A stretch of DNA of 45,497 nt, from positions 1 to 45,497 of IMG/VR virus record IMGVR_UViG_3300006790_000004. One strand, 5' to 3'. A program made the translations under genes and the position numbers. Shown here piece after piece: positions 36,709 to 42,302 of the stretch. A model generated the notes under the pieces. The model searched no databases, had not been told where the DNA came from, and saw nothing but the letters and a program-made list of their open reading frames with translations. Source of the stretch: a virus. Within the stretch, counting starts at the first letter, position 1. Each line of letters opens with the position of its first letter.

Positions 36709-36995
36709 GTTTCTTTAAGGAAGTCGAAGGCGAGGCCGCCGTGCTCATCGAGAACGGCGTCTACAAACAGGTGCCTTTGTTCACCCGCGACGGCTATCTC
36801 TACGCCAAGATCGGTGGCGGCTTCGTGCGCCTGATGGCCGACGGGGCCACGACGAAGGCGAAGATGCGCTTGGATTTCATGTCGTGGAACGGCCCGCTGT
36901 GCCGCGACGGAATGGGTCGTCTTTGCACAAAGGACGTGACCGGTGCGAAGACGCTCGGCGAGCAGGCGCAGAAGCTGTTGGGCGGCGCGGCATGA
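36705..36995 (+). CDS. 96-aa hypothetical protein
   Basis: ATG 36705 overlaps the helicase stop (ATGA). Strand-rich first half (VLIENGVYKQVPLFTRDGYL, YAKIGGGFVRLMA), then KAKMRLDFMSWNGPLCRDGM and a helical end (KTLGEQAQKLLGG). Resembles small conserved proteins of alphaproteobacterial phages placed beside replication genes, without known function. Confidence 0.72.
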   Translation: MSFFKEVEGEAAVLIENGVYKQVPLFTRDGYLYAKIGGGFVRLMADGATTKAKMRLDFMSWNGPLCRDGMGRLCTKDVTGAKTLGEQAQKLLGGAA

Positions 36996-37417
36996 CCTGG
37001 CTCCCGTATCTGATGGGCTTCGCCGAACACGCGGCCACGAAGTCGAAGGACAGCACGAAGGTCGGTGCGGTCCTGGTCGGGCCGGAGCGCGAGGTTCGGT
37101 TGACCGCGTTCAACGGCCCGCCGAGGGGCGTAAAGGACGATGCGTCGCGTCGTGAGCGGCCGGCGAAGTATCTCTTCGCTTCGCACGCGGAGCAGAACCT
37201 GGTCGCATTCGCGGCTCGGGAAGGCATTCGGACGAAGGGCTGCACCGTCTACGTGACGCACGCACCCTGCAGCGCCTGCGCGAAGACGCTGATCCAGGCC
37301 GGCATCGCGAAGGTCTGCGTCGGCACCGGCACGACGTCGATGCCCGCCGAAGAGTTCGAAGCGGCCGACGCCATGTTCGACGAGGCGGGCGTGATCGTAT
37401 GGAGGGCCGACGCGTGA
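36992..37417 (+). CDS. dCMP/cytidine deaminase family protein
   Basis: A 141-aa zinc deaminase. HAE (residues 65-67, SHAEQNLVAF) gives the zinc ligand His65 and proton-shuttle Glu67; PCxxC (92-96, APCSACAKTL) gives the two Cys ligands. N-terminal STKVGAVLVG is the usual substrate-site strand. It is short, so a dCMP deaminase-like role feeding dTTP synthesis is the most likely; an activity on other cytidines cannot be excluded. Start overlaps the previous stop. Confidence 0.88.
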   Translation: MTWLPYLMGFAEHAATKSKDSTKVGAVLVGPEREVRLTAFNGPPRGVKDDASRRERPAKYLFASHAEQNLVAFAAREGIRTKGCTVYVTHAPCSACAKTLIQAGIAKVCVGTGTTSMPAEEFEAADAMFDEAGVIVWRADA

Positions 37418-38460
37418 CGGCCTACTACAACGAGTTCGACCCGTACGCCGCAGCATGGCTGCGCAACCTCATTTCCGCCGGCCACATCGCGCCTGGCGAC
37501 GTAGACGAACGGAGCATTCTCGATGTCCGACCAGACGACCTTCGAGGCTACACGCAGTGCCATTTCTTCGCTGGAATCGGCGGATGGAGCCTCGGCGCCC
37601 GGCTCGCAGGCTGGCCCGACGATCGACCCCTCTGGACAGGATCATGCCCCTGCCAGCCATTCAGCGTCGCCGGCAAAGGCGAAGGCGCGAAAGATGAAAG
37701 GCACCTCTGGCCGGTCTTCTTCGAACTCATCCGTGCCAGACGGCCCGATGTCGTCATGGGAGAACAGGTTGCGGCTGCGGTTGGCAAGGATTGGCTCGAC
37801 GGAGTGTTCTCTGATCTGGAAGGCATCGGATACGCCAGCGGGGCGGCCGTTGTCCCGGCTTGTGCCGTCGATGCGCCCCATCGAAGAGATCGACTTTGGT
37901 TTGTGGCCGACGCCAGCGGCGGGGCTGCACAACGACGGGGAGGACCCGGCGTCATTCCGGGCACGTCAGGCGAAATGGAAGGACAGCCCGAAGCGCTACC
38001 ACAACAGTCCGCCGTTGCCGATCATCGCGAAAGAGACGGCGGCGCTTTGGGCGACGCCATCGGCGCGCGACTGGAAGGACACGCCGGGCATGTCGACGAT
38101 CGGAACCAACCCCGACGGCTCGACACGAACGCGGCTGGACCAGTTGCCGCGCCAGGCGGCGCTGTATCCGACGCCACGTTCGGCGGACGGCGAGAAGAAC
38201 GTTCGCTCGCTGGGCGGGACGTTGCGGGAGATCGAGCGGAAGGGTTCGCCGCAGGACACCTGCCAGGCCGCGCAAATCACACAAGCTGGTCCGACGCTCG
38301 ATGGGCCATCGGCGCAGACGGAAAAGCCCGGCGCGTTGAACCCGGCATTCGTCTGCTGGCTCATGGGGTTCCCGCCCGAGTGGGAAAGCTGCGCGCCTAC
38401 GGCAATGCCATCGTCCCGCAAGTCGCGGCGGAAATCATCGGCGCCTACCTCGACGCCTGA
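37414..38460 (+). CDS. dcm: DNA (cytosine-5) methyltransferase
   Basis: A 348-aa C5-methyltransferase. Start GTG 37414 overlaps the deaminase stop (GTGA) and has GGAGG upstream; ATG 37399 is an alternative. Motifs in order: I FAGIGGWSLG (51-61), IV PCQPF with nucleophile Cys80, VI GEQV (116-119; Gln in place of the usual Asn), VIII HRRDRLWFV (156-164), X YGNAIVPQVAAEII (about 326-339). The target recognition region lies at ~170-310 and has poor codon bias, because a second frame runs through it. It may protect phage DNA from restriction. Confidence 0.9.
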   Translation: MTAYYNEFDPYAAAWLRNLISAGHIAPGDVDERSILDVRPDDLRGYTQCHFFAGIGGWSLGARLAGWPDDRPLWTGSCPCQPFSVAGKGEGAKDERHLWPVFFELIRARRPDVVMGEQVAAAVGKDWLDGVFSDLEGIGYASGAAVVPACAVDAPHRRDRLWFVADASGGAAQRRGGPGVIPGTSGEMEGQPEALPQQSAVADHRERDGGALGDAIGARLEGHAGHVDDRNQPRRLDTNAAGPVAAPGGAVSDATFGGRREERSLAGRDVAGDRAEGFAAGHLPGRANHTSWSDARWAIGADGKARRVEPGIRLLAHGVPARVGKLRAYGNAIVPQVAAEIIGAYLDA

Positions 38461-38461
38461 A
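37523..38461 (+). CDS. long frame nested within the cytosine methyltransferase gene
   Basis: In the +1 frame, a protein starting MSDQTTFEATRSAISSLESA runs through the methyltransferase gene, with LRLRLARIGSTECSLIWKAS, repeated LWPTP or LWATPSARDWKD units, and GALNPAFVCWLMGFPPEW near the end. Similar sequences recur beside phage methyltransferases (from memory). Hand-counted G/C at third positions: 36 of 40 at 37981-38100 and 17 of 20 at 38221-38280, against 24 of 40 and 10 of 20 in the methyltransferase frame. It has no stop of its own and stays open into the gene at 38561. Confidence 0.55.
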
Positions 38462-38491
38462 CAATTTGTAGAAAATTACGATAAAAGTCTA

Positions 38492-38520
38492 TCGACAGAC
38501 ACTTGCAAGAGGACTATGTT
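38492..38520 (+). promoter_or_regulatory. promoter of the recombination operon
   Basis: TCGACA (38492-38497), 17 bases, TATGTT (38515-38520), with predicted start near 38527 and first gene at 38561. The operator motif CTTGCAAGAG lies in the spacer. Confidence 0.6.
38502..38511 (+). promoter_or_regulatory. candidate operator CTTGCAAGAG, copy 4
   Basis: Exact copy inside the spacer of the promoter at 38492-38520; a bound repressor there would block RNA polymerase. Confidence 0.45.
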
Positions 38521-38560
38521 GCAAGTCCGATACCCCGAACGAAACACGGAGAAAACCCAC

Positions 38561-39016
38561 ATGATCAAGATCACCATCGAAGGCGAAACCGGCGCGGAAG
38601 TCGCGTCCAAGCTGCAGGGATTGATGGACGCTTTCAGCGGCACGGCAGCGCCCGCACCGGCTGAAACTCCGGCCGCCGAGCCGAAGAAGACGACGAGGGC
38701 CAAGGCCGACAAGAAGGCCGAGCCCGAAGTGAAGGAAGAGCCGGAGCAGGAAGCCGTCGAGCAGACCGCCGAAGACGTCGCCGAAGTGTCGAAAGATGAG
38801 AAAGAAACCGCTCTCGACATCGACACGATGCGCTCCTACGCGCTCGGTTATGTGAACGCCGCTGCCGACGACCAGGCCAAGCGCCGCGAGCTCTTCCAGG
38901 AGATCCTGAAGCAGTTCGACGTCGCCAAGTTCAACGACATCCCCGTCGCGAAGCTGGCGGCGGCCAAGACCTTCATCGACGGCAAGCGCGCAGCGCTCGG
39001 TCTGGACGTCGAATAG
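38561..39016 (+). CDS. 151-aa acidic coiled protein at head of recombination operon
   Basis: GGAGA precedes ATG 38561. Residues 1-25 (MIKITIEGETGAEVASKLQG) form a short alpha/beta unit, 28-85 are disordered with Ala/Pro/Lys/Glu (EETAEKK-type repeats such as ADKKAEPEVKEEPEQE), and 90-150 are a helical domain (YALGYVNAAADDQAKRRELF, then VAKLAAAKTFIDGKRAALG). Found next to DUF2800 and DUF2815 genes in similar phages, so probably part of the recombination module. Function unproven. Confidence 0.72.
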   Translation: MIKITIEGETGAEVASKLQGLMDAFSGTAAPAPAETPAAEPKKTTRAKADKKAEPEVKEEPEQEAVEQTAEDVAEVSKDEKETALDIDTMRSYALGYVNAAADDQAKRRELFQEILKQFDVAKFNDIPVAKLAAAKTFIDGKRAALGLDVE

Positions 39017-41702: not shown

Positions 41703-42302
41703 ATGAATTTGATCTACAGGATGGATTTGATGCTTAATCTCGGCGCAGCGATGGCCGGCGGGAATGGCCGAAACCACCATCCTGACGACTTCTACCCGAC
41801 ACCCTTCGACGCCGTCGAGGCGCTGCTCGCCGAAACCGGCCAGTTCATGGGCCGCACAGTCCACGAACCCGCCTGCGGCGACGGCGCGATCTCGCGCGTC
41901 CTGGAATTGCACGGCTACGACGTCATTTCGACCGACCTGATCTATCGCGGCTACGGGCTCGGCGGGATGGACTTCCTCGCGCACGCGCCGGTGGCCGACA
42001 CGATCGTCACGAACCCGCCGTTCAAATATGCCGCCGAGTTTGTTCGGCACGCCATGGCGCACAAGCCACGCTACCTCGCGCTGCTGCTCAAATCGAACTT
42101 CTGGAATGCGCGCATCCGGCTGCCGCTCTTCAACATCGCGCCACCGCGCCAGATCCTGCCGCTGACGTGGCGGCTCGACTTCACCGGCGGCGGTGCGCCG
42201 ACGATGGACTGCACCTGGTTCGTGTGGGGCGATTTCGAACCATCGCAGCCCTTCCGCCCGCTGCCGAAGCCCACGAAAACCCTTTCGGAGATGATGCTGT
42301 GA
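41703..42302 (+). CDS. N6-adenine DNA methyltransferase-like protein
   Basis: Up to 199 aa. Motif I-like VHEPACGDGAIS (S-adenosylmethionine binding) precedes motif IV NPPF (VTNPPFKYAA), the order of beta-, gamma- or Dam-like N6-adenine enzymes. The middle DFYPTPFDAVEALL is typical of phage versions. ATG 41721 or 41730 are also plausible starts. No target recognition domain is obvious, so specificity cannot be given. Probably anti-restriction. Confidence 0.83.
   Translation: MNLIYRMDLMLNLGAAMAGGNGRNHHPDDFYPTPFDAVEALLAETGQFMGRTVHEPACGDGAISRVLELHGYDVISTDLIYRGYGLGGMDFLAHAPVADTIVTNPPFKYAAEFVRHAMAHKPRYLALLLKSNFWNARIRLPLFNIAPPRQILPLTWRLDFTGGGAPTMDCTWFVWGDFEPSQPFRPLPKPTKTLSEMML

Follow-up and report, generated by a model that had tools for sequence, protein, structure and literature searches.

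A conserved +1-frame gene within a phage cytosine methyltransferase gene most likely encodes the recognition part of the enzyme

Background

The multispecific C5 methyltransferases of Bacillus phages SPR and phi3T carry recognition modules of about 40 residues each that are arranged in tandem and can be exchanged. In C5 methyltransferases, specific contacts to the DNA are made by the small domain, which comprises the variable region and motif IX (PMC3404938). Two members of this class are natural two-polypeptide enzymes: M.EcoHK31I, which recognizes YGGCCR (Lee, Kam and Shaw 1995, as cited in PMC3404938), and the alpha/beta methyltransferase M.AquI, which recognizes CYCGRG (PMC3404938). According to the account of M.EcoHK31I given in PMC3404938, the larger subunit contains motifs I–VIII and X and is predicted to contain also the target recognition domain (TRD), whereas the smaller subunit contains motif IX alone.

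The window analyzed here is the entire 45,497-nt virus record IMGVR_UViG_3300006790_000004 of IMG/VR. It contains a C5-cytosine methyltransferase gene (alpha) that is overlapped by a long open reading frame in the +1 frame (beta). A first-pass annotation had proposed that either two proteins are encoded or the recognition domain is read from the other frame by frameshifting.

Anatomy of the locus

The methyltransferase frame (Table 1) has an alternative start at ATG 37399. It matches phrog_363 (E 8.9e-84) and Pfam PF00145 (E 8.2e-18), resembles M.HhaI over residues 76–170, and carries the catalytic motifs of C5-cytosine DNA methyltransferases, including PCQ, ENV (replaced by EQV), and VIII as well as the GN of motif X; the corresponding stretches of the translation are GSCPCQPFS, GEQVA, APHRRDRL, and YGNAIVPQ. 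The catalytic motifs extend to about 37908, and motif X is intact in the same frame, as had been noted.

The +1 frame is open from ATG 37523, located 21 nt behind an in-frame stop (TAG 37502), and comprises 313 codons inside the methyltransferase gene, which agrees with the original estimate of more than 300. The LWPTP and LWATP units reported with it are found at 37901–37915 and 38045–38059; YPTP follows at 38165. A recount of G and C at third codon positions gave 35/39 and 17/19 in the +1 frame versus 24/40 and 10/20 in the methyltransferase frame, so that the earlier hand counts for the +1 frame (36/40 and 17/20) were right to within edge codons. Over 37909–38290, the values are 105/127 and 75/127, respectively; the GC3 of the polymerase gene is 0.83. 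The N-terminal domain of beta, modelled as a helix and a beta hairpin, overlaps the catalytic motifs of alpha and includes the invariant residues Gly91 and Trp99 (TGG at 37817).

Table 1. Features of the overlapping genes and their surroundings in the window.
Feature	Position	Strand	Remarks
Alpha, C5-cytosine methyltransferase frame	37414..38460	+	GTG start, GGAGG upstream
Ribosome-binding site (GGAG) of the +1 gene	37511..37514	+	8 nt 5' of ATG 37523
Beta, +1-frame gene, family-homologous part (306 codons)	37523..38440	+	phrog_1008 match; stop, substitution, and synonymous-constraint tests
Beta N-terminal domain (residues 75–115)	37745..37867	+	AlphaFold pLDDT about 75–90; relative synonymous entropy 0.48–0.60
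Beta recognition-type unit 1 (WPTP...)	37904..38047	+	
Middle region	37909..38290	+	Purifying selection on the beta frame, no conservation of the alpha frame
Beta recognition-type unit 2 (WATPSARDWKDTPGM...DQLPRQ)	38048..38164	+	Common to 28 other units
Beta recognition-type unit 3 (YPTPRSADGEKNVR...)	38165..38335	+	
Beta motif IX-like segment (LNPAFVCWLMGFPPEW)	38336..38383	+	Overlaps HGVPARV of alpha
Alpha motif X (LRAYGNAIVPQ)	38389-38421	+	Intact in the methyltransferase frame
Next gene, acidic protein	38561-39013		Own GGAG; promoter-like site 38492-38520; same frame as beta

Between the end of the methyltransferase gene and the next gene, the +1 frame lacks a stop (38461–39016), which results in an open reading frame of 497 codons. 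It runs on to 39016 because the next gene shares its frame; the product of that gene could be assigned neither to a PHROG family nor, at a significant level, to a Pfam family. The +1 frame of most relatives ends 20–70 nt short of the methyltransferase stop, so the extension in the window is probably incidental but possibly a fusion. A similar run-on into an adenine methyltransferase gene is present in phage eiAU. Directly upstream, a dCMP deaminase gene (36884–37417; phrog_174, E 7.2e-39) overlaps the methyltransferase start, and another DNA methyltransferase gene, which belongs to a different family (phrog_799, E 2.3e-49), is located at 41703–42302.

Conservation and selection of the +1 frame

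The evidence from the window alone is modest: 5 of 300 synonymous permutations of the codons reach the length of the +1 frame, which is compatible with an artefact, i.e., a +1 frame of GC-rich phage DNA that is open and seemingly conserved solely by virtue of the methyltransferase protein and codon bias. The evidence that the frame is a real second gene comes from its relatives and is decisive. IMG/VR was searched separately for relatives of the methyltransferase and of the +1 product, and each search yielded 80 loci; the addition of ten phage records and of the locus in the window gave a set of 170 distinct loci. Both frames occur on the same strand with an offset of +1 in 170/170 loci, including the 80 found by the methyltransferase alone, and the offset is always +1 among 139 distinct relatives. 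In the 80 methyltransferase-found loci, the median open share of the gene is 89% in the +1 frame, 20% in the +2 frame, and 34–53% in the antisense frames. Among 138–139 loci, which are related by descent and do not represent independent events, stops in the +1 frame are absent from beta residues 6–68 (121 expected) and 69–128 (114 expected); the stops in the +2 frame agree with expectation. Just 5' of the beta start (methyltransferase codons 8–38), +1 stops are more frequent than the synonymous expectation (217 versus 147), as they are in a second set of loci (101 versus 77).

The result was replicated independently with 80 loci from bacterial genomes, where the offset is +1 in every case and not one of 145 expected stops is present; since this set was found via the +1 product, the presence of the frame was selected for, but its overlap with a methyltransferase gene was not. 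The +1 frame is retained also in the methyltransferase gene of a Paenibacillus phage, which has a GC content of 49%, but is absent from the ordinary methyltransferases examined as controls (E. coli K-12 dcm, HaeIII-type, and E. coli plasmid methyltransferases).

Substitution rates at the three positions of methyltransferase codons, determined for pairs of loci with 80–90% identity, show which frame is constrained in which part of the gene. They have the ordinary signature before the +1 start (0.139/0.096/0.407) and amount to 0.117/0.078/0.250 over the catalytic overlap and to 0.116/0.068/0.160 in the C-terminal part. In the middle region, the rates are 0.379/0.211/0.168 (0.381/0.186/0.149 in the independent bacterial set), which corresponds to an order of third > first > second position when read in the +1 frame. 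Substitutions that are synonymous only in the methyltransferase frame, which the first-pass annotation had named as counterevidence, are not what was observed. The column entropies point the same way: that of the methyltransferase frame is about 3 bits in the middle region, and the +1 frame conserves WxTPxxRD, WPTP, and LNPxFxxWLMGFPPEW. An additional comparison of pairs of units is biased because the pairs were picked by their identity in the +1 frame; both sets of substitution rates were picked otherwise. In the middle region, the methyltransferase frame is unconstrained and the +1 frame is under purifying selection.

The synonymous variability of the methyltransferase codons, relative to the expected value, is 0.96 upstream of the +1 start, 0.82–0.84 over +1 residues 1–68, 0.48–0.60 over residues 69–128, and 0.32 in the alpha codons that overlap the LNP motif (LNPAFVCWLMGFPPEW), the most conserved part of beta. 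The methyltransferase codon that gives rise to Trp99 of beta is NTG followed by G in 139/139 relatives, even where Leu is replaced by Met or Val, against a background of 35% NTG among Leu codons. At the beta start, GAT, which creates the ATG, is used at 87 of 109 Asp-Val sites (39% in the background). Among the 87 relatives with this ATG, 57 have a GGAG 8 nt upstream, and nGG Arg codons amount to 52% (28% in the background).

Selection acts on both the conserved coding gene beta and its start, and the proposal that two proteins are encoded is now strongly supported by the stops, the substitutions, and the start of the frame in its relatives. The substitution pattern, the stop counts, and the replication in the bacterial set rule out chance openness in GC-rich DNA. 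An artefact of protein sequence and codon bias has a negligible probability, as substitutions in the middle region track the codon positions of the +1 frame, stops are missing after the beta start in every locus, the Paenibacillus phage gene keeps the frame at 49% GC, and the ordinary controls lack it.

Relatives of beta

Beta is a member of phrog_1008 (residues 9–295 on profile positions 13–286 of 329, E 1.4e-33) and matches also phrog_31772 and phrog_27243. The search for homologues that had been suggested as a test of the second protein retrieved 254 phage records by tblastn, including those of Paenibacillus phages; the +1 product has no significant counterpart among the families of Pfam, NCBIfam, and PADLOC. 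The +1 frame is present also in gene 58 of coliphage N15 (locus L171), where it is unannotated, and in Salmonella phage epsilon15. Both frames are annotated in few records (K1H, K1ind2, Leyra, and PhiXhv-18), and most show only one; in Arthrobacter phage Jinkies (L175) and Stenotrophomonas phage SOVA965 (L179), the name “DNA methylase” is attached to the recognition frame, and the catalytic frame is unannotated. Text searches of the literature found no published account of the overlap in phages.

In actinophages, the beta family occurs as a separate gene (Vash gp33, Eaglepride gp81, and Scottish gp69) or forms the C-terminal half of single-chain enzymes (prophiT49-1 and PFR1). The phrog_1008 profile matches the separate TRD genes Vash gp33 and Scottish gp69 and also the single-chain enzymes of prophiT49-1 (residues 268–457, E 2.8e-64) and locus L220 (residues 314–488, E 7e-46); phrog_363 matches the single-chain forms in the catalytic N-terminus and in motif X, which places the two families in a Rosetta-stone relation. 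In 89/91 loci of the SOVA965 and Vash types, the offset of the recognition frame from the catalytic frame is +1, and a comparison of the profiles of the beta family and the SOVA-type TRD frame gave a probability of 99.4% (E 6.5e-22). Judged by sequence, beta and the recognition halves of phage methyltransferases of the single-chain and two-gene forms are homologous.

Similar frames were encountered on plasmids. The dcm gene of an Enterococcus lactis plasmid (43% GC; L369:1159–2616) contains a +1 open reading frame of 144 codons (P 0.01 by synonymous permutation) with LKTS...PWMNWGMTWNGNCLT, which resembles the N-domain of beta; the overlap may thus extend into the dcm genes of Firmicutes. A plasmid methyltransferase gene of Streptomyces violaceusniger (L365:1540–2640) has an unannotated N-domain and LPTP units in the +1 frame.

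Recognition-type modules and a motif IX-like segment

The +1 products of the beta family contain one to five units that start with W/LxTP and have a median length of 42 residues. Among these units, 135 pairs are at least 75% identical although they are located in proteins whose N-domains are less than 60% identical, and 116 of the 135 pairs occupy another position in the array or belong to an array of other length. Unit 2 of the window is up to 92% identical to units in proteins whose N-domains share only 28–43% identity.

Near-identical W/LxTP modules of 30–40 residues are located in the catalytic frame of some phages and in the +1 frame of others. One module is encoded in the catalytic frame of L273 (LLPTPRATDGTKGGPHQRGSSGDLMLPSAV) and in the +1 frame of L279 (97% identical), L275, L274, and L174; a second module is in-frame in L220 but in the +1 frame of L277, L280, L282, and L283. 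Such pairs imply that the same module is used in either frame and that modules have evidently been exchanged both between proteins and between frames. A tandem DNA duplication of a module in L279 (2501–3763), with LLPTPRATDTNGAGAHGTGGPDLRTAVT-type repeats in the +1 frame that match repeats in the methyltransferase frame, is possibly a snapshot of array growth.

The segment LNPAFVCWLMGFPPEW of beta looks like motif IX because single-chain relatives have LSPRFVEWMQGLPDGW in front of motif X and the model of a single-chain relative aligns with M.HhaI from end to end (Z 24.8, 245 residues aligned). Its sequence resembles LTPRExxRLQGFPD. With motif X in the alpha frame and LNPAFVCWLMGFPPEW in the beta frame, the arrangement would by sequence fit the EcoHK31I type, the putative motif IX being identified through the single-chain relatives.

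In the model of the single-chain relative, which was based on an alignment of full-length relatives because fragment alignments with mixed halves had misplaced the recognition fragments, the C-terminal part with motifs IX and X has a pLDDT of 86–97 and the LPTP units are below 50. The AlphaFold model of beta alone, whose alignment was built without eight rows from annotated records, is of low confidence (mean pLDDT 59.7), and its comparison with PDB folds, uninformative at this confidence, gave no match. Beta, its family profile, and the related TRD profiles had no significant sequence match among PDB chains, and the C-terminal 84 residues of a single-chain relative had none either. Since beta and the LPTP units are poorly modelled, the presumed role in recognition rests on position and modular exchange.

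A probable two-polypeptide enzyme

The best explanation, with a probability of roughly 0.8, is that of a phage C5-cytosine methyltransferase made of two polypeptides, with alpha and beta read from one stretch of DNA and beta setting the specificity. Alpha would provide motif X and the AdoMet-binding catalytic core, with a freely varying linker between them; beta, translated from its own internal start at ATG 37523, would comprise a short N-terminal domain as well as W/LxTP target-recognition modules in an array and the motif IX-like segment. The two would assemble into an active enzyme in which beta determines the sequences that are methylated, probably protecting the phage DNA from host restriction. 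In this family, the region of the small domain is under selection in the +1 frame and not in the catalytic frame. The simplest account has beta contributing the modules and motif IX in trans, and beta most likely represents the DNA-recognition part of the enzyme. The formation of a complex, the role of the modules in specificity, and the biological purpose are all inferred.

The recognition modules follow directly after the catalytic domain in the +1 frame, and single-chain relatives exist, which would also suit a programmed frameshift near the end of motif VIII, giving one chain with a +1-encoded recognition domain; frameshifted methyltransferases are mentioned among phage predictions (PMC10885494). 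Such a product would lack independent initiation and be conserved only after the shift site, but roughly 128 codons of the +1 frame are open and conserved 5' of the first module, with a sharp onset at a conserved ATG with GGAG and 0 stops in beta residues 6–128. A late shift would leave this part untranslated, an early one would lose the catalytic motifs, and in the type represented by the window motif X would end up in the wrong frame. The conserved start and the conservation of +1 residues 1–128 favor internal initiation, and frameshifting is very unlikely; of the earlier proposal, the location of the recognition region in the other frame seems to hold, and the mechanism is disfavored.

In some actinophages, the modules and motifs IX and X are located in the catalytic frame, yet the +1 open reading frame of the N-domain persists, suggesting that beta may do more than recognition and may be more than a detached piece. 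This persistence, the invariable position of the N-domain over the catalytic region, and the lack of a PDB fold match for beta are also compatible with a real protein that has an unrelated job, e.g., as regulator, anti-restriction protein, or assembly chaperone. That alternative is unlikely, however, because the modules and the motif IX-like segment are homologous and in places near-identical to the recognition half of single-chain enzymes.

An even chance is given to the further possibility that the catalytic core is encoded in one frame and a swappable set of recognition modules in the other, with the modules evolving by recombination and hopping between frames over time; phages would then re-target the enzyme through swaps in the overlapping gene, and any sequence in this region would be tolerated by the catalytic gene.

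Implications

Same-strand overlaps of about 300 codons with both frames under selection are rare. The present one is widespread among phages of Proteobacteria, Paenibacillus, and Actinobacteria, is common, with 254 annotated phage records, and goes mostly unannotated, as only one of the frames tends to be shown. If beta sets the specificity, the sequence preference of the enzyme would be unreadable from the annotated methyltransferase gene, and expression of a recoded or codon-optimized methyltransferase would destroy the second subunit. The locus would also be a natural case of protein modules that move between reading frames.

Comparison with known systems

The closest known system is M.EcoHK31I, which has motifs I–VIII and X in the large chain and motif IX in the small one, an arrangement that the window would share by sequence with its putative motif IX. 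Its small subunit is reportedly encoded inside the large one in another reading frame; the small frame of the window is similarly nested in the large one, with the overlap present in 170/170 relatives. The difference, based on the descriptions of the two systems rather than their sequences, concerns the recognition domain: instead of residing in the larger polypeptide, whose middle part is unconserved and unselected in alpha, recognition-type modules are located in the small, overlapping frame. Also unlike M.EcoHK31I, the system of the window is phage-borne, and no adjoining restriction enzyme gene was noted.

M.AquI resembles the locus in having catalytic and recognition halves on separate polypeptides but is split within the variable region, with motifs IX and X together on the small subunit, and is not known as a deep same-strand overlap. 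The two-gene forms of actinophages (Vash gp32/gp33, Eaglepride gp82/gp81, and Scottish gp68/gp69) have the same phrog_1008 half and the same +1 offset, and the single-chain forms (prophiT49-1 gp22 and PFR1 Orf45) have the same phrog_1008 recognition half; they differ in that motif X is located in the recognition half or the single chain, whereas it is in the catalytic frame of the window. The same two frames, both annotated, are present in K1H (“C-specific methylase” and “Mte8-like protein”), K1ind2, Leyra, and PhiXhv-18; the literature searched contained no analysis of function, mechanism, or selection for these pairs. In contrast to SPR and phi3T, whose modules are in-frame parts of a single chain, the modules of the window sit in an overlapping gene. 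What is new here is the place where recognition appears to be encoded, the breadth of the overlap, and the hopping of modules between frames.
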